Shown here piece after piece: positions 1 through 10,600 of a DNA stretch of 41,002 nt; the first letter of the stretch is position 1; each line of letters opens with the position of its first letter. A program made the translations under genes and the position numbers. Below the pieces are notes generated by a model. That model ran no database searches. It saw only the letters and a program-made list of their open reading frames with translations, and was not told the origin of the DNA. Source of the stretch: Planococcus sp. A6 (GTDB lineage Bacteria; Bacillota; Bacilli; Bacillales_A; Planococcaceae); the NCBI RefSeq assembly GCF_028823615.1, contig NZ_JAPEHT010000013.1, positions 1 to 41,002 on the forward strand, given 5' to 3'.

Positions 1-95
1 TCGTCGCTGCGCTCCTGCAGGGTCTCAATTGTCTCGCTGATCCTCCCGGAGTCGCCGATTTCCGCTCCATCTCTAGTTTTAGAGGGGCAGTAAAT
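1..95. repeat. Intergenic repeat block A, copy 1 (cut by window edge)
   Basis: Positions 19-55 are identical over 37 bases to 6205-6241, and the similarity continues on both sides. After the core, both copies carry a CTCTA/TAGAG mini-hairpin with different 4-base loops. The segment is noncoding. The left edge lies outside the window. Block A is followed by block B here and at the other two sites. Confidence 0.8.
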
Positions 96-329
96 GCCAT
101 ATTTCACTGAGTGATAAGCGTTACTAGTAGAAAGAGCTTTTTGAATTTCTGCTTACTTATATAGAAGAAAGTAGTTTTGATAAATTACAACTTAAGTTTA
201 GAAAACCTTAATTCACCGTTAGTACAAGTCACCGCGACTCAGCGTAAAGCGCTGGGAGCAGTCTCGCATTCTTCGCGTCACCACAAAATAAAAACAATGA
301 AATCCAATTAATCTATCCATTTCACATTG

Positions 330-430
330 AATTGACCCGAGCGCCGGCGCGTCCAAGGGCTAGGCGAAGTGACGAGACCGGTGCTTTTCCGGGCTCATCA
401 CGAAAGCCATGCCCAAAGCGCCAAGCGCTG
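330..430. repeat. Intergenic repeat block B, copy 1, with conserved-geometry hairpin
   Basis: This is a diverged copy of the element at 3556-3790 and 6329-6545. The centre folds as follows: outer stem GTGACGAG (369-376) with CTCATCAC (394-401, one C/A mismatch), then an unpaired A377/G393, then inner stem CCGG (378-381) with CCGG (389-392), and a 7-base loop. The other two copies keep the same layout with different paired bases. A shared tail (GAAAGC, then CCCAAAGCG) follows. The function is unknown; it could be a structured RNA or a DNA hairpin element. Confidence 0.6.
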
Positions 431-540
431 TATTACGAAAGGAAATCCTTTAAATGCTTAAATTTGTTTATTACTAGTGCAACTCATTCAATAACTAATA
501 AAAGAAACACAATACATATCTATAGAAGGAGGCTGTCCAT

Positions 541-1506
541 ATGAAGAAGATTCTATCGATCGATGGCGGGGGCATACGGGGGATTTTGCCGGCGATGATG
601 CTGTGTGAACTGGAGCGGCGTACGGGTAAACCGGTCTCTGAACAATTCGATATCTTCGTTGGCACGTCGACCGGGGCGATCTTGGCGCTCGGACTCTTGG
701 TCCCTGACGGCAAGAAGCCGCGCTATACGGCAAACGACATCCTCAAGCTCTACGAAACGGAAGCCGAGCGCATGTTCCGGAAATCGTTTCTCCACCGTTC
801 ATTCGGACTCGTGGGGCGTTTTCTTCATACGCAATACAGCCACCGCGAATTCGAACAAGTGCTCAAGCATTACTTCAACGACTTGAAATTATCCGACCTG
901 CTGCAGCCAGCCGTCATTCCGACTTATGACATCCACGGACGGCATGCGCATTTCTTCAAAAGCACCGTCATCAATTTGAACGAACGCCAGCCTGACAGCG
1001 AAATCCGCCATATTATCCGGGCTGCGACGGCGGCACCGAGTTACTTCGCGCCGGCGAAGATCCCGGATTATCCCAAAGCGGCGTTCATTGATGGCGGCGT
1101 GTTCGCCAATGACCCGGGGATGAGCGCTTATACGGAAGGGCTCGAACTTTACGGAGACGAAGAGGAAGACTTTCTGCTCGTATCGCTCGGTACCGGGGAA
1201 GCGCAGCGCGAAGTGGAAGTGACCGGCTGGCGGGCCTTTTTCCATTACGGCTGGGCACGGTCCTTATTGAAAGTCATGATGGACGGCAGTTCCGACTCCG
1301 TCGACCATCAGCTGCGCCATTTGTTGAAAGACGAGGGAATCGACCAACGCTATTACCGCTTCCAGGAAAAGCTGCCCGCGGACGATTCCGGGATCGAGCA
1401 ACTCGACCGCGTGACGCCGGAAAACCTCGCTCGGCTGCGGCAAGTCGCGAAGCGCATGATCGACAGCCAAAGCGCTGAACTCGATAAATTGTGCCGCTTG
1501 TTATGA
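541..1506 (+). CDS. Patatin-like phospholipase family protein
   Basis: This 321-residue protein has the full patatin signature: oxyanion-hole motif DGGGIRG at residues 8-14, nucleophile elbow GTSTG at 41-45 (Ser43), and the catalytic-dyad Asp in DGG at 184-186. The family hydrolyses acyl esters of phospholipids or related lipids with a Ser-Asp dyad. No signal peptide or membrane segment is seen, so it is probably cytosolic or peripheral to the membrane. The ATG is preceded by GAAGGAGGC at a good distance. The gene stands alone between repeat block B and an acyltransferase gene 93 bp downstream. Some patatins (CapV) are CBASS effectors, but no CD-NTase or partner gene is nearby, so a housekeeping or lipid-turnover role is the simpler reading. 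The exact substrate cannot be told from sequence. Confidence 0.9.
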   Translation: MKKILSIDGGGIRGILPAMMLCELERRTGKPVSEQFDIFVGTSTGAILALGLLVPDGKKPRYTANDILKLYETEAERMFRKSFLHRSFGLVGRFLHTQYSHREFEQVLKHYFNDLKLSDLLQPAVIPTYDIHGRHAHFFKSTVINLNERQPDSEIRHIIRAATAAPSYFAPAKIPDYPKAAFIDGGVFANDPGMSAYTEGLELYGDEEEDFLLVSLGTGEAQREVEVTGWRAFFHYGWARSLLKVMMDGSSDSVDHQLRHLLKDEGIDQRYYRFQEKLPADDSGIEQLDRVTPENLARLRQVAKRMIDSQSAELDKLCRLL

Positions 1507-1599
1507 GTTGTCATCGAAGTGTAATGCGTTTGTCGTGGTAATTGCAGCGGTGGCTCGGTTAAAATAAGCGAGGAATCATAGTGAAAAGAGGTCAACCCA

Positions 1600-2625
1600 A
1601 TGGCACGAAGATACGGCTATATGGACTGGATGCGGGTGTTTGCGATCATTACGGTCGTCGGCGTCCACGTCGCATCGAAAATTATCAATAATTACACCAC
1701 CGGCGATTGGGAATGGCATTACGCAAACGCGATCGATAGCGCACTCCGTTGGTGCGTGCCGATCTTCTTCATGCTGAGCGGCGCATTGTTACTTACGCGC
1801 GACTCAAAAGAACAGATTGGTGAATTTCTCCGGAAGCGGCTCGGCAAAGTCCTATTGCCGCTCGTGTTCTGGAGCGCCATCTACATGGCCTATAATATTT
1901 TTCAGCTCGGTGAGGAATATACGCCAGGGCAAATGCTCGGTGCATTCATTTCAGACGATATTTATTTCCATCTTTGGTTTCTCTATATCATCACGGGGCT
2001 GTATTTGATGGCGCCGTTTTTACGCATTCTCGTAAAGCATATGGACAAGACGATGTTCCATTATTTCTTCGCGTTCTGGTTCTTGTTCTCGGCCGCGGTA
2101 CCGATTTTCACGCGGGCGACGGGTTACGAAGTCGCTTTCGCCGGGCAGATGTTCGCGCCGTATATCGGTTATTTCCTACTAGGTGCGTACCTGGTCATGT
2201 ACCCATTGCCGAAGCGCTGGCTACCGACACTTGGGGTGCTCGCGATTATTGGCTATGCGGTTACGCTGTACGGAACGGTGTCGGCCAATGTGGGGCGTGA
2301 AGCGGGCGATTTCGATGACTTCTTCTACGAGCATTATTACCCTCACGCGATCTTTGTTTCGCTCTTCGTTTTCGTTGCGTTCCAGCAGCTCGGTAAGAAC
2401 TTGAAATCGACGCCGCTCATTACGCGCATCAGCACGGCAACGTTTGGGGTCTACATCATTCACCCGCTGATCCAGACCTATTTGAACCGCTTGTTTAATT
2501 TCAACGAAACGACCATCAATGTGTGGATTGGCGTGCCCTTATCGTGGATCGTCATCTTCATCTTGTCGTATGTTGTCATCCGACTGATGCAGAAGACACC
2601 GGTAGTGAGAAGGCTAGTGCCATAG
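1600..2625 (+). CDS. Acyltransferase 3 family integral membrane protein
   Basis: This 341-residue polytopic membrane protein has about ten hydrophobic segments. The N-terminus carries the family hallmark: DWMR followed by a hydrophobic helix ending in VGVHV, with the conserved His at residue 23. Acyltransferase-3 (OafA/WecH/YrhL-like) proteins move acetyl or other acyl groups across the membrane onto surface sugars or peptidoglycan. No SGNH domain is fused to the C-terminus; the protein ends in a short basic tail. It lies 93 bp after the patatin gene in the same direction, and I see no terminator between them, so they may be co-transcribed. It could modify the capsule made further downstream, but that link is inference only. 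GC content matches its neighbours. Confidence 0.88.
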   Translation: MARRYGYMDWMRVFAIITVVGVHVASKIINNYTTGDWEWHYANAIDSALRWCVPIFFMLSGALLLTRDSKEQIGEFLRKRLGKVLLPLVFWSAIYMAYNIFQLGEEYTPGQMLGAFISDDIYFHLWFLYIITGLYLMAPFLRILVKHMDKTMFHYFFAFWFLFSAAVPIFTRATGYEVAFAGQMFAPYIGYFLLGAYLVMYPLPKRWLPTLGVLAIIGYAVTLYGTVSANVGREAGDFDDFFYEHYYPHAIFVSLFVFVAFQQLGKNLKSTPLITRISTATFGVYIIHPLIQTYLNRLFNFNETTINVWIGVPLSWIVIFILSYVVIRLMQKTPVVRRLVP

Positions 2626-2816
2626 GGAATCTAAGCACTTATGTCTATATAACTCTATACACAAGAGGCCACTGATTATTGTGGCAGTGTGTGGACGGGA
2701 TTAATGATTAAAAATTTGATGGATTTGATAGAATAACTCGTATTAAACGGAATACCATGATAAGCTGTATTTAATTGTAAATAAAGGCGGGTTTGTGGGT
2801 ATAAAGGGGTGATAGT

Positions 2817-3227
2817 ATCAAGAGGTCGATTTGGCTAGGCGTAATGATAGCGATGGCGATTGTGCTATCGGCATGTACACATAATGAAGTCATACGGGTC
2901 GGCGTGCCATTTACCGATGGCTTGACCGAAGGGGTTCATTTCCAGAAAGACATCAGTGACCGAGCTTCCATTGTGTCACTCAGAACGATTCTGCAAAACG
3001 AAACCGAGCTCGAGTCGCTCGACCGGTTGTCGGTTGAACCGCAGGCTGTCTTCACCATTGACCGCCCAGACGATGGCGTCCAGGAAATCCGTCGTTTTGT
3101 CTGGTACCGCGATAATGGCCGGGCCATCATGTCCAATGAACGCAACGTTTTGTCCCATAAAGAAAACCAAGAATTTTTCAGGCTGACGGCAGAACAGACG
3201 CAAGACCTGAAAAAGATTCTTCAATAG
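2817..3227 (+). CDS. Small predicted lipoprotein, apparent ATC start codon
   Basis: From the first ATG in frame (2844) the protein begins MIAMAIVLSAC, a lipobox (LSAC) with no positively charged n-region. Reading back in frame to the ATC at 2817 gives a textbook lipoprotein signal: (M)KRSIWLGV, hydrophobic core, LSAC. AAAGGGGTG (2803-2811) sits five bases before that ATC. No ATG, GTG or TTG occurs in frame between the upstream stop (2802-2804) and 2844. Either the gene uses a rare AUC start or its ATG has mutated. The mature part (about 117 residues) is soluble and matches no family I recognise. A hairpin terminator follows. The lipoprotein call is firm; the start is inferred. Confidence 0.7.
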   Translation: MKRSIWLGVMIAMAIVLSACTHNEVIRVGVPFTDGLTEGVHFQKDISDRASIVSLRTILQNETELESLDRLSVEPQAVFTIDRPDDGVQEIRRFVWYRDNGRAIMSNERNVLSHKENQEFFRLTAEQTQDLKKILQ

Positions 3228-3252
3228 GATGTACAAATAGCATAAAGGTGAC

Positions 3253-3279
3253 AAAGCTCTGTTGTTTACAGGGCTTTTT
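3253..3279 (+). terminator. Rho-independent terminator after the lipoprotein gene
   Basis: AAAGCTCTG (3253-3261) pairs with CAGGGCTTT (3269-3277) with one T/G wobble and a 7-base loop, followed by a T-rich tract. It starts 25 bp past the stop codon. Confidence 0.8.
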
Positions 3280-3288
3280 GTTTTGGTT

Positions 3289-3375
3289 TATATAGGAATG
3301 GATAGTGGGGGAGATTGCGCTTCGGGCGGACGCTTTCTGAGGGGGCCGGCTTCAGCCGCTTCCAGCTCGCTCGGG
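3289..3375. repeat. Intergenic repeat block A, copy 2 (partial)
   Basis: As at 6114, this copy begins right after a terminator T-tract with TATATAGGAA and then GATAGTGGGGGAGATT. It shares GACGCTTTC and the AGCCGCTTC/GCTCGC stretch with copy 3, then diverges before the 37-base core. It is noncoding. Confidence 0.65.
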
Positions 3376-3393
3376 AAGTAGTAGTAAATCCCA

Positions 3394-3460
3394 CTGCTCC
3401 CACATCTGCGAGCAGATGCGTCGCAAATGAACAAGCTCAAGTATCTTTCGCTTGTTCATT
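3394..3460. other. Cluster of intergenic inverted repeats
   Basis: ATCTGC (3404-3409) and GCAGAT (3412-3417) form a tight palindrome. CTGCTC (3394-3399) could instead pair with GAGCAG (3410-3415), giving two mutually exclusive hairpins. A separate stem of 11 base pairs joins 3426-3436 to 3450-3460 (core GAACAAGC/GCTTGTTC). There is no T-tract after it, so it does not look like a plain terminator. Confidence 0.5.
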
Positions 3461-3555
3461 AGTCGCCGCCCTACGTTACATCTTTATAAATAGATCATAT
3501 GTTATAAGTGTCATATTCTTTAATAGGTGTTTAGAAAAAATATTCCACTGGATTT

Positions 3556-3790
3556 AATACCTGCAGTAAAATGAGCAAGCTTTCGAAATTCATCCTATCG
3601 ATTGAGCTTCGATACGGTCATGTGATAATTAGAGGACCAATCCCACTTCACTAACTTTTCTCAATGAAATCTCTACACAGTTCCGCACCAAGGGGTGAAG
3701 CGAAGCAATAAGACAAGCGTTCTTCTTGGCTTATTGTGAAAGCTCAACCCCAAGCGGACACTGCGGCTCTTTCAAGAGATGCCCCAAATC
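3556..3790. repeat. Intergenic repeat block B, copy 2, with conserved-geometry hairpin
   Basis: This copy shares a left part (AAGCTTTCGAA, then CATCC) and a right part (GTTCCGC, AGTGAAGCGAAGCAATAAGA-like sequence, AAGCGG tail) with 6329-6545. Its hairpin is: CAATAAG (3706-3712) with CTTATTG (3730-3736), unpaired A3713/G3729, CAAG (3714-3717) with CTTG (3725-3728), and a 7-base loop. The rest of 3228-4054 contains no convincing gene. Confidence 0.75.
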
Positions 3791-3975
3791 AAATCTCTCT
3801 CATTTATCTATCGATATAGGGTTATAAGCAAACACTAAGCGATTTACCTAGCCGATGCCCATCTCATCTCACACAACTAATCAATTAGCTATAACTCCTG
3901 CGTGACTATTTGTTCTCCAGAAACCCATCAATACGATTTCCTCAAGTAAAGCTTATTACAATAGACACAATTTTG

Positions 3976-3989
3976 TGTAAACGCATTCT
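3976..3989 (+). promoter_or_regulatory. Possible cre site (CcpA operator) upstream of the nucleotidase
   Basis: TGTAAACGCATTCT matches the Bacillus cre consensus TGWAANCGNTNWCA at all but two positions. It overlaps a 14-base inverted repeat (ACACAATTTTGTGT, 3965-3978) and lies just before a TATAAT (about 4009), so binding there could control transcription of the gene at 4055. This rests on a motif match only. Confidence 0.3.
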
Positions 3990-4054
3990 ATTCCGAAACC
4001 CGAAGTAGTATAATAACTTTGCTTAACCATTATGAATGATGAGGAGATGGAAGA

Positions 4055-6070
4055 ATGAGCAAGAAACTATCCTTGACGCTCGCCGCTTCGGTGCTCGCGC
4101 TAGGCAGTTTGACAACAGGAGCACCGGCGATTGCAGCGGTAGATAGCAATTCGCAAGCGCAAGAGAACCCTGGAAAAGGCAAGGGGCAAAGCTTTAAAGA
4201 ATACATCCAGGAATGGAAGAACAGCGGCAAAAAAGGAAAGCTCAAAGAAGTCGAATTACAGATTCTCGGCACCTCGGATTTACATACAAACTTCGTTAAC
4301 TACGATTACTACCGCGACGCGAAGTCCAATGCATTGTCGCTCGCGAAAACAGGCGTCTTGATCGAAGATGCGCGCGAAGAAAATGACAACACATTGTTGT
4401 TCGATAACGGCGACTTGATCCAAGGCACTCCATTCGGCGGCTATAAAGTGAACGTCGACCCGCTCGAAGACAACGAATTGCATCCAGCATTCGCAGCACT
4501 CGAGTCGCTCGATTTCGATGCGTCGACACTCGGCAACCACGAGTTCAACTTCGGCCTTGATTATCTTGATAACGCATTAGAGGAAGCGCCGTTCCCGGTA
4601 CTCAATGCCAATGTCTATGACGCAGAAACCGGCGAGAACCGTTTCACGCCGTACACGATCATGGATAAAGAAGTGACGGACCGTAAAGGCAAAAAACACA
4701 CGATTCAAGTCGGCGTCATTGGCGTCGTGGCACCGGGCATCATGGAATGGGACCGCGCGCATCTTGAAGGCGAGGTTATCGCCAAAGATGCTGTCGAAAC
4801 GGTCGAGAAATTCATTCCGGAAGTCGAGAAAGCAGGAGCGGACGTCGTCGTCGTTCTTTCCCATTCCGGCATGGGCGATGAAGTCCATACGGTCGGCGAA
4901 GAAAACGTGACGTATCAATTAACGGAAGTGGACGGCGTCGATGCCATCATCACCGGCCATAACCACGACGTATTCCCAGGATCTTATAGCGAATTGGCGA
5001 ATGTCGACCAGGAAAACGGCACGATCAACGGCACGCCAGTCGTCATGCCTGGTAAATTCGGAAGCCATCTCGGCATCATCGATTTGACGCTTGAGCCGCG
5101 CGGCAAGAAATGGCGCATCACGAATGGTGAAGCGGAACTGCGTGCCATCGATTCAACGACAGATGAAGTCTCTGAGCAAGTCATCGAAGCCGTGAAAGAA
5201 ACGCACGAAGGCACGGTGGAATACATCCGCAGCCCTGTCGGCGAAACGACGGCTCCGATCAACAGCTATTTCTCACTCGTACAAGATGACCCATCTGTGC
5301 AGATCGTCAACAATGCACAACTTTGGTACGCCGAGCAGCAACTCGCTGGAACGGCAAATGCAGATCTTCCGTTACTTTCCGCAGCAGCACCGTTTAAAGC
5401 AGGCGGGCGCAATGGCGGCGATTACTACACGAATATTGAAACCGGCGAAATCGCCATCAAGAACGTCGCAGACCTTTACGTCTACGACAACACTGTCTTC
5501 GTCTTGAAACTGACAGGCGCAGACCTCAAGGAATGGCTCGAAATGTCAGCCGGTCAGTTCAAGCAAATCGACCCGAACGCAGCGGGCGAGCAAACATTCA
5601 TCAACGACAATTACCGCACGTATAACTTCGATGTCATCGATGGCGTCACATACGACATCGATATCACAGAGCCAGCGAAATACGACGGCGAAGGCGCTGT
5701 TGTCAATGAAGGCGCAGAACGCATCGAGAACCTTCAATACGAAGGTGCAGCGATCGACCCGAACCAGGAATTTTTAGTTGTGACGAACAACTACCGTGCG
5801 AGCGGCAACTTCCCGGGTGTCCGCAATGCAACAGAATCCATCGACTTTGCGTATGAGAACCGCCAAGCGATCCAGGATTACATCGTGGAAGTCGGCACAA
5901 TCGATCCTTCTGCAGACGGCAACTGGCAGTTCGCGCCGGTAGCAGGCGACCCGAACCTCGTGTTCGAAACGTCGAACTCGGCACAAAGCTTGGCAGAGAA
6001 AGAGCCAGCGATCCAGTATATTGAAGCCACACAAAACGGCTTCGCCAAATACGGCTACACGATCCAGTAA
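4055..6070 (+). CDS. Secreted 2',3'-cyclic-nucleotide 2'-phosphodiesterase/3'-nucleotidase (CpdB/YfkN type)
   Basis: This 671-residue protein has a Sec signal peptide (basic start, hydrophobic core, likely cut near APAIAA at residues 24-28) and a two-domain 5'-nucleotidase fold. The metallophosphatase domain shows the two-metal motifs DLH (75-77), NGD (118-120), GNHE (160-163), SH (269-270) and GHNH (301-304). The NYDYY stretch right after DLHTNF is typical of CpdB-type rather than UshA-type enzymes. The C-terminal substrate domain (about 385-630) contains the AGGRNGGDY loop. The family releases phosphate and nucleosides from extracellular cyclic and mono-nucleotides. No LPXTG or membrane anchor is seen at the C-terminus, so it is probably released or wall-associated through the basic region after the signal. 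It is a single gene with its own terminator. A possible cre site suggests carbon control. Confidence 0.92.
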   Translation: MSKKLSLTLAASVLALGSLTTGAPAIAAVDSNSQAQENPGKGKGQSFKEYIQEWKNSGKKGKLKEVELQILGTSDLHTNFVNYDYYRDAKSNALSLAKTGVLIEDAREENDNTLLFDNGDLIQGTPFGGYKVNVDPLEDNELHPAFAALESLDFDASTLGNHEFNFGLDYLDNALEEAPFPVLNANVYDAETGENRFTPYTIMDKEVTDRKGKKHTIQVGVIGVVAPGIMEWDRAHLEGEVIAKDAVETVEKFIPEVEKAGADVVVVLSHSGMGDEVHTVGEENVTYQLTEVDGVDAIITGHNHDVFPGSYSELANVDQENGTINGTPVVMPGKFGSHLGIIDLTLEPRGKKWRITNGEAELRAIDSTTDEVSEQVIEAVKETHEGTVEYIRSPVGETTAPINSYFSLVQDDPSVQIVNNAQLWYAEQQLAGTANADLPLLSAAAPFKAGGRNGGDYYTNIETGEIAIKNVADLYVYDNTVFVLKLTGADLKEWLEMSAGQFKQIDPNAAGEQTFINDNYRTYNFDVIDGVTYDIDITEPAKYDGEGAVVNEGAERIENLQYEGAAIDPNQEFLVVTNNYRASGNFPGVRNATESIDFAYENRQAIQDYIVEVGTIDPSADGNWQFAPVAGDPNLVFETSNSAQSLAEKEPAIQYIEATQNGFAKYGYTIQ

Positions 6071-6077
6071 ACAGAAA

Positions 6078-6113
6078 AACAGACCCGAGAGATTTTCTCT
6101 TGGGTCTGTTTTT
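6078..6113 (+). terminator. Strong Rho-independent terminator after the nucleotidase
   Basis: A 13-bp stem (6080-6092 with 6096-6108, core CAGACCCGAGAGA) has a 3-base loop and a TTTTT tract. It starts 8 bp after the stop codon. Confidence 0.93.
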
Positions 6114-6266
6114 ATATAGGAAGAGATAGTGGGGGAGATTTCGCTGCAAGCCGACGCTTTCCGGAGGGCTCGCATTGAGCCGCTTCGATCGCTGCGCGCT
6201 CTGTAGGGTCTCAATTGTCTCGCTGATCCTCCCGGAGTCGCGGCTTTCCGCTTCATCTCTAATAGT
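6114..6266. repeat. Intergenic repeat block A, copy 3 (fullest copy)
   Basis: This copy begins directly after the terminator T-tract (TATATAGGAA, then GATAGTGGGGGAGATT as in copy 2) and carries the 37-base core identical to 19-55 at 6205-6241. It ends with the CTCTA/TAGAG mini-hairpin. It is GC-rich and noncoding, with no transposase or long terminal inverted repeats. Confidence 0.8.
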
Positions 6267-6328
6267 AGAGTGGTATTGAAGGTCATCACATTTCGGAATG
6301 AACGAGTAGAAATAATAAATTGAATATG

Positions 6329-6545
6329 TAGTATCTACAGCAAAATAGGCAAGCTTTCGAAGTCATTCCAACCGCTAAGTGTCGATCCAGTCATGTGCTG
6401 TGTATTGAAGCGCTCACCTCTGCATAAACCAGTCACGATGGAATCTCAAAGCAGTTCCGCGCCACGAGTGAAGCGAAGCAATAAGACAGGAGGTTTTTCT
6501 GGCTTATTGCGAGAGCTTAACCCTAAGCGGCGACTGCAACTAAAA
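6329..6545. repeat. Intergenic repeat block B, copy 3, with conserved-geometry hairpin
   Basis: This copy is similar along its length to 3556-3790. Its hairpin is: GCAATAAG (6478-6485) with CTTATTGC (6503-6510), unpaired A6486/G6502, CAGG (6487-6490) with TCTG (6498-6501, one G/T wobble), and a 7-base loop. The AAGCGG tail follows. Confidence 0.75.
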
Positions 6546-6619
6546 CGAGATGATTCACCCAACCTGTTCTCTTTTCTCTATCAAGAATAGGTAGTAAGGA
6601 TAAAGGTGTCACAAATCTC

Positions 6620-6871
6620 CTAGCGAGGCATATGCCCCTCAACTTTCAACTTCCGAAAAGCCGCAATCCCGAAGAACAGATAGATCACAAGCACTGTCGC
6701 AGCAAGCGGTACGGAGATATTGGATAAGCTGAACAGCTGATAGACAAACCAGAGAAGAGATAGCGCACCCACAAATAGTCCTGCGCGTTTGTTTTTCCGG
6801 TAGATGTTCATGAAAATAATGGAAGCCAGTGCCCCCATAATGAGCGCCGCGCCTACGAAAAGAATATACAT
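6620..6871 (-). CDS. Small integral membrane protein of unknown function
   Basis: This 83-residue protein has about three hydrophobic segments (roughly 1-20, 30-47 and 54-70) with a basic loop RKNKR after the first, and a short charged C-terminus. I do not recognise a family. The ATG at 6871 has no good ribosome binding site close by; the nearest purine run is GGGAG, then GAGG, about 24-33 bases upstream. In frame, an ATC six codons upstream would sit better relative to GGGAG and would add IELSII, but no ATG, GTG or TTG exists there. It is flanked by repeat block B on one side and the long spacer before 7305 on the other, so it is probably a single-gene unit. Confidence 0.6.
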   Translation of the reverse strand: MYILFVGAALIMGALASIIFMNIYRKNKRAGLFVGALSLLWFVYQLFSLSNISVPLAATVLVIYLFFGIAAFRKLKVEGHMPR

Positions 6872-9724: not shown

Positions 9725-9919
9725 ATGGAATTTGCTGAATACCAACACCGCTTAGAGAAAAAACACGGGAAATCGATCGAGCAAATCATACGGACCATCT
9801 ACATCGATGAAGATTACGGCCCGGCCACTGGCGCCCAGGAACTTGGGATCCCACGACAAGTGTTTATGCATTTCGTCTATGAATTTGATTTAAAGTCCGA
9901 CAAGTTGCAGCGCCTGTGA
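9725..9919 (+). CDS. Small HTH-like protein, paralog 1
   Basis: This 64-residue acidic/basic mixed protein with no signal or membrane segment is preceded by a GCAGGTGGAG ribosome site. A core GPATGAQELGIPRQVFMHFV (about 35-54) has the helix-turn-helix rhythm (small-residue helix, Gly turn, Ile, then a basic helix). It aligns closely with the protein at 10238, which lies 319 bp downstream, so the two arose by duplication. No family is recognised; DNA binding is inference. The last codons, the stop and the terminator are tandemly duplicated downstream (9896-10008). Confidence 0.7.
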   Translation: MEFAEYQHRLEKKHGKSIEQIIRTIYIDEDYGPATGAQELGIPRQVFMHFVYEFDLKSDKLQRL

Positions 9920-10008
9920 TTATACAAACCGCCCATTTTCAGATGGAGCGGATCCGACAAGTTGCAGCGCCTGTGATTATACAAACCGCCCATTTTCAGA
10001 TGGAGCGG
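9896..10008. repeat. 57-bp tandem duplication over stop codon and terminator
   Basis: Positions 9896-9951 and 9953-10008 are the same 56 bases at a 57-bp period, with no mismatch seen. The unit covers the last seven codons of the 9725 gene, its TGA and the terminator hairpin. Only the second unit keeps the T-tract; the first is cut at GAGCGG. Confidence 0.95.
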
Positions 10009-10570: not shown

Positions 10571-10600
10571 CAAAGCGGACACTCCAGCTCTTACGAGCTA
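10571..10600. repeat. Possible tail fragment of repeat block B
   Basis: AAGCGGACACT then GCTCTT matches the right tail of block B copy 2 (near 3752-3775). The diagnostic hairpin is absent, so this is at most a remnant. Confidence 0.3.

Follow-up and report, generated by a model that had tools for sequence, protein, structure and literature searches.

A large family of intergenic structured repeats with a preserved fold in Planococcus and its relatives

Several described families of bacterial repeats are close to the element reported here, which we call b. REP and BIME sequences, as presented in an excerpt of PMC8266576, are multi-copy extragenic imperfect palindromes with conserved mismatches, recognised on a single strand and found in tandem or alternating arrays. 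The pneumococcal BOX element is, according to an excerpt of PMC3049150, an intergenic modular composite containing a unit in variable tandem number, and a preference for the leading strand and for convergent genes is reported there. The bcr1 repeat, termed specific to the Bacillus cereus group in an excerpt of PMC2267715, is likewise structured, measures about 150-170 bp and has mobile features. Several of these characters have counterparts in b, and the likeness of bcr1 to b is one of description. bcr1 is not known to occur as tandem arrays.

Like REP and BIME sequences, b is an extragenic, multi-copy imperfect palindrome. It differs from REP in the size of its rod (about 90 nt, against 20-50 nt for a REP palindrome) and in its 5′ end, where REP's GTAG or GGAG was found in none of 96 rows over the first 18 alignment columns. 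By eye, b had no tnpA-REP gene as a neighbour, and about 40-114 matches per genome were obtained when many candidates were scored, as opposed to about 600 REP sequences in E. coli. The modules of BOX are different ones, and in b the repeated unit is itself a large hairpin; BOX has two fixed end modules, whereas no fixed 3′ module was seen in the b mosaics. The behaviour of b is BIME- or BOX-like, yet it departs from REP in size and in lacking GTAG, and its place among BOX elements is tentative.

The window is the whole stretch of 41,002 nucleotides that was analysed, from Planococcus sp. A6, and makes up an entire contig (C44) of its assembly. Three hairpins with 7-nt loops were verified in it, at 369-401, 3706-3736 and 6478-6510, with the stems given for them in the original prediction. 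Two details needed correction, since the outer stem of copy 1 forms 7 of 8 pairs with one C·A mismatch and is not fully paired, and one pair in the inner stem of copy 3 is G·U. The hairpins are also only the tip of a longer rod, which further helices extend outward. The opposed A and G that had been called constant are nearly so: A·G was present in 85 of 96 Planococcus rows, and among 78 distinct rows from other genera the 5′ A was found in 76 and the 3′ G in 77. A 21-nt motif of copies 2 and 3, with no match in copy 1, occurred twice at three or fewer mismatches and not once in 100 shuffles, which excludes chance for the hairpins. Each of the three b copies is preceded upstream by another hairpin module, a. 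The features located in the window, with scores from R1, the covariance model of b, are as follows.

1..100, plus strand: 3′ part of a module a, truncated where the contig ends (85% identity between 15-100 and 6201-6286)
326..435, plus strand: b copy 1, tip at 369-401 (R1 match, 89.9 bits)
3287..3500, plus strand: module a preceding b copy 2 (80% identity between 3287-3362 and 6111-6186)
3663..3773, plus strand: b copy 2, tip at 3706-3736 (R1 match, 104.4 bits)
6111..6286, plus strand: module a preceding b copy 3, with approximate ends (own-genome matches)
6437..6546, plus strand: b copy 3, tip at 6478-6510 (R1 match, 98.7 bits)
10573..10597, plus strand: probable vestige of a b copy, from its 3′ end (25 nt at 84% identity with 3752-3776)

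The module a at 3287..3500 differs in its apical part, has a 3′ end placed approximately by alignment, and was missed by a probe for the 3′ arm (score 9). The one at 6111..6286 has own-genome matches on contigs C221, C250, C35 and C199 and on others. The place corresponding to the probable remnant carries a full b in P. maritimus (L267), where a module a was also seen by eye. Elsewhere in the window, 9896-10008 holds two identical 56-nt copies with a spacing of 57 nt.

The consensus fold, taken from an alignment of 15 own-genome copies, is an imperfect rod of about 90 nt within a unit of about 110 nt (110 model positions). It has 25 consensus pairs, 11 of which show a double change that keeps pairing among these copies. 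Its pairs are interrupted by the nearly constant A·G mismatch and by internal loops rich in purines, one of these loops being mostly GAN facing purines. An unpaired 5′ motif, AA[CT]G[AG]AAT, was conserved in 68 of the 96 Planococcus rows and absent from that place in 77 rows from other genera. Folding copies 1-3 as RNA gave z-scores of -4.2, -3.9 and -3.2 on the plus strand and equal ones on the minus strand (-4.3, -3.2 and -3.6), and this lack of preference counts against a plus-strand reading. Folding as DNA was better on the plus strand, with -3.2, -3.6 and -2.7 versus -2.3, -2.0 and -1.9 on the minus strand. A coding role for b was rejected, as reading frames vary among copies by eye.

A blastn search with window 6100-6600 found 38 places in the own genome, mainly of the two modules a and b, and R1 gave 43 own-genome matches at E<=0.01, 41 of them at E<=8.5e-22 and two weak. 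Six contigs of the own assembly (C30, C67, C117, C130, C203 and C213) terminate inside an a-type match or no more than 50 nt from one, so that copies of a, and b copies near them, are probably undercounted. With up to 150 candidates scored per genome, a complete relative (G009) had 92 b matches, and 96, 114 and 103 were counted in G208, G209 and G224. The wide searches used stricter filters and the best 64, 14, 14 and 9 candidates per genome, which makes their per-genome counts lower bounds and a non-match weak evidence of absence. R1 matched 36 of 60 genomes in a sample of relatives (36/36 in the own genus, 0/24 in other families) and 94 of 261 across the family, including all 46 of the genus. 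A second model, R2, built from copies in other genera, matched 104 of the 261 family genomes, in 6 of 19 genera, and 20 of 398 genomes sampled across the class, all in the own family. Among the genomes searched, b was found confined to one bacterial family, Planococcaceae.

With window 3640-3790 as the one query, no phage record matched and one of 72,556 plasmid records did, giving no convincing plasmid home. This record, a linear "plasmid" of 7 kb from Planococcus sp. MB-3u-03 (L302, NZ_CP025126.1), has two b-like places; its five listed genes look chromosomal, and it is perhaps a chromosomal fragment. Rfam gave no match at gathering score across the window, and at E<=5, for window 6050-6650 only, six matches, all below gathering score and none over b copy 3. 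No paper on b was among the matches listed from the open-licence PMC literature, and it may have been published elsewhere.

The composite appears to be a mosaic, often of a long hairpin module a, a linker and then one to four b copies with linkers (numbers from G009). Clusters held 1-4 copies, all in one direction within a cluster (44 clusters in G009 and three in the window), whereas in another genus, g41, arrays alternated (+-+-+-+-+) as BIMEs do, throughout L262 and over most of L260, the gaps being about 87 and 98 nt. Spacing in tandem was mostly about 216 or 247 nt, and no consensus structure was seen in the linkers, apart from those of the 247 type, which have a weak local stem. After removal of ORFs shorter than 150 aa that overlapped b, 42 of 44 loci in G009 and all three in the window overlapped no kept ORF; the two remaining clusters overlapped kept ORFs of 155 and 205 aa. 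The upstream and downstream neighbours, scored relative to b at 47 loci as raw counts from ORF proxies without a genome baseline, were same/same at 16, same/opposite at 13, opposite/opposite at 12 and opposite/same at 5, and one locus had no upstream gene.

Module a was found upstream in 24 of the 47 loci by the 3′-arm probe (shuffled maximum 13, 235 shuffles), although L232, counted among these, seems to consist of just the arm. On its own it matched 15 of 299 genomes of the class, all in the same family, with the best two candidates scored per genome. Three genomes (G154, G202 and G207) matched a but not b, so a is an independent repeat. Among the whole-composite matches listed, which span 451-885 bp, loci were 73-83% identical. 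When the best match of 150 bp or more was taken for each array, identity between loci was 72-88%, setting aside two values of 100% from overlapping extracts, and such figures do not demonstrate recent mobility. By eye, module a has interchangeable apical parts (L091, L174-L186, L264 and L265). The part of it containing GCTCCCACATCTGC also replaces the tip of b in P. citreus (L264), where the copy at orthologous locus c3 has an inserted module in place of the tip, a nested mosaic replacement.

Selection on structure had been proposed from the three window copies, and both the covariation in larger alignments and the constraint at orthologous loci support it. The two main alignments, A5 (95 distinct rows from G009 and the window) and A6 (78 distinct rows from other genera), were both fitted to the model and hence lean toward its pairing. 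In A5, 96.1% of cells paired and covariation was 0.340, against 0.146 in shuffled alignments and at most 0.062 with slid partners; two of five measures were matched by 2 of 500 shuffles and the remaining measures by none. In A6 the corresponding values were 91.4%, 0.255, 0.107 and at most 0.077. Double changes were seen in 15 of 25 pairs (A5) and 17 of 25 (A6). One outer pair was unpaired in 75 of the 78 rows of A6 and one inner pair in 31, and the loss of the outermost pairs in other genera counts against our best reading. By its own terms, the original prediction would fall if a covariance-model search of the family revealed no excess covariation, or if the region aligned to a known MITE with terminal repeats. 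That search was run and covariation exceeded both the shuffled and the slid controls; target duplications and terminal inverted repeats, which were sought by eye at imprecise boundaries, were not seen.

Orthologous copies were compared at four loci, c1, c2, c3 and gatB (6, 6, 5 and 13 sequences), with L264 omitted from c3, its copy being interrupted, and L187 omitted from gatB. The gatB locus was taken from 30 of the 46 genus genomes, and 27 were parsed. Its 14 nearest loci (L174-L187) all had b matches; of the two others searched with the model, L202 had none and L203 had three b copies in the opposite direction. No clean empty site was found, some distant members of the genus lacking the element at gatB by eye with flanks too diverged. 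At c2, upstream of the 5′-nucleotidase gene of the window, one b was present in the window, L264, L267 and L268, two in L265 and L266, and a weaker reversed b in L269 and L270 (46 and 43 bits). In pairwise comparisons, which are not independent, double changes kept the pair in 104 cases and broke it in 3, and single changes kept it in 149 and broke it in 94. Two-sided changes amounted to 2.4-4.8%, against 0.3-1.0% expected if the sides were independent. Divergence of the b core was 0.097, 0.073, 0.109 and 0.120 at the four loci, and that of the flanks, some of which are perhaps not homologous at c2, was 0.165-0.463 upstream and 0.274-0.559 downstream, so that b diverged 1.7-6.3 times less. With this lower divergence and the compensatory changes, resident copies look constrained, although gene conversion may account for part of the slow change.

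The same comparisons bear on two explanations that dispense with a maintained fold. Decay in situ of dead miniature transposons would fit the dispersed intergenic positions and the 73-83% identity of the listed composites, but most cells still pair even in A6 (allowing for the fitting to the model), and compensation and slow change at orthologous loci make such decay extremely improbable. Covariation might also arise by DNA template switching inside palindromes rather than by selection. The mechanism is published (PMC8794818, seen in excerpt), and double Watson-Crick changes are frequent in comparison with wobble ones (95 versus 74). However, template switching would tend to remove the A·G mismatch and the internal loops, which persist across genera, and b changes more slowly than its flanks; we regard this origin as very improbable. 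Mobilisation of b as a REP-like repeat by the single-copy Y1 (RAYT-like) transposase of many Planococcus genomes is improbable too, if somewhat less so. One Y1_Tnp gene is present in each of G000, G009, G019 and G021. Genomes with five or fewer b matches were 5 of 17 without Y1_Tnp and 1 of 29 with it (Fisher p 0.02), the single exception, G006, having a broken gene, and the 5′ AA[CT]G[AG]AAT of the Planococcus copies could also be cited in favour. The association was lost with a cut at 13 matches (5/17 versus 5/29, p 0.46), though, and 12 of the 17 genus genomes without Y1_Tnp have at least 14 b matches; G208, with its 96, has no Y1_Tnp. The REP-type GTAG or GGAG is absent, and the 5′ motif is not at its place in other genera. 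By eye, the Y1_Tnp genes at L138-L141 (G009, G019, G021 and G000:C211) are flanked by several repeats of about 21 bp, GTCCCTGTGCACCACACAATT-like and in both orientations, with no b seen there; these are probably a separate REP-like system. Because of these flanking repeats and the b-rich genomes that lack the gene, a RAYT partner for b is disfavoured, though the enrichment of the lowest-copy genomes among those without Y1_Tnp keeps it a minor candidate.

As to which molecule folds, G·U cells outnumbered A·C cells by 44:30 in A5, 43:15 in A6 and 46:18 in a further alignment, A7. Recent single changes gave 74:46 (nominal p 0.007, from non-independent rows, some common to A5 and A7), and the excess was gone among variants seen once (6:5 and 3:6). 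Internal spacers in G009 had C>G on the element strand in 48 of 48 cases, 36 in one and 12 in the other assumed replication orientation; this bias was not general in g41. In G009, 32 of 44 clusters lay on the leading strand, with the origin assumed near coordinate 1. The purine mismatches, the 48 biased spacers and the modest excess of G·U suggest strand polarity. With the conserved mismatch and purine loops, this makes a single-stranded fold recognised by a protein the simplest account. Our best reading, to which we would give an even chance, is a BIME- or BOX-like hairpin repeat of mosaic build, with recognition of its single-stranded fold. The working form would be the plus strand folded as a single strand, and a protein may bind it through the A·G mismatch and purine loops, as in REP/BIME or BOX. 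If the form is ssDNA, dispersal and array expansion would take place as DNA, with retention by the host.

An action of b as RNA, with arrays transcribed from their own promoter or by read-through, is a serious competitor that we consider possible. The hairpins might then bind an RNA protein, guide processing or serve as sRNA arrays. Purine internal loops and A·G would be at home in RNA, and the composition of the linkers (A/C-rich in G009, with little or no consensus structure) and the excess of G·U over A·C would suit it. Double changes (n=105) comprised 64 of transition type, which G·U could bridge, 25 of transversion type and 16 flips. The C>G bias of the linkers could equally mean RNA and counts against a preference for ssDNA. 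On the other side, a simple weight matrix gave no sigma-A-like promoter signal, either in spacers (z 0.23 and -0.53) or at 21 loci whose first linkers were scanned (mean z -0.40), the 12 loci with both neighbours opposite are antisense to both, arrays in g41 alternate, and G·U makes up just about 2% of cells. These points, together with the strand difference in DNA folding, favour DNA, and we lean slightly towards ssDNA hairpin recognition over a purely RNA function, while holding the former at somewhat less than even. The alternatives originally offered, an RNA element or a DNA hairpin substrate, are supported in part, and either may apply: some strand polarity argues for a single-stranded fold, but no promoter signal was found and orientation alternates in a related genus.

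What is established is that the intergenic repeats called b form a large structured family in Planococcus and relatives, and that evolution has preserved their fold. More tentatively, and with real doubt on our part, many members of Planococcaceae could possess a so far unrecognised system for regulation or chromosome organisation on the scale of the genome. It would consist of strand-specific RNA (or ssDNA) hairpin arrays, with tens of copies to about 100 in each genome, and every resident copy would be selected as a rod that binds a protein and has a fixed A·G and loops rich in purines. Interspersed bacterial repeats are commonly viewed as short, decaying parasites; in contrast, orthologous loci here appear to retain their individual copies of a rod of about 90 nt with conserved non-canonical motifs. 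With its many paralogues and orthologues, the b family is a natural system for probing the binding partner and whether RNA or ssDNA is the form that is bound.
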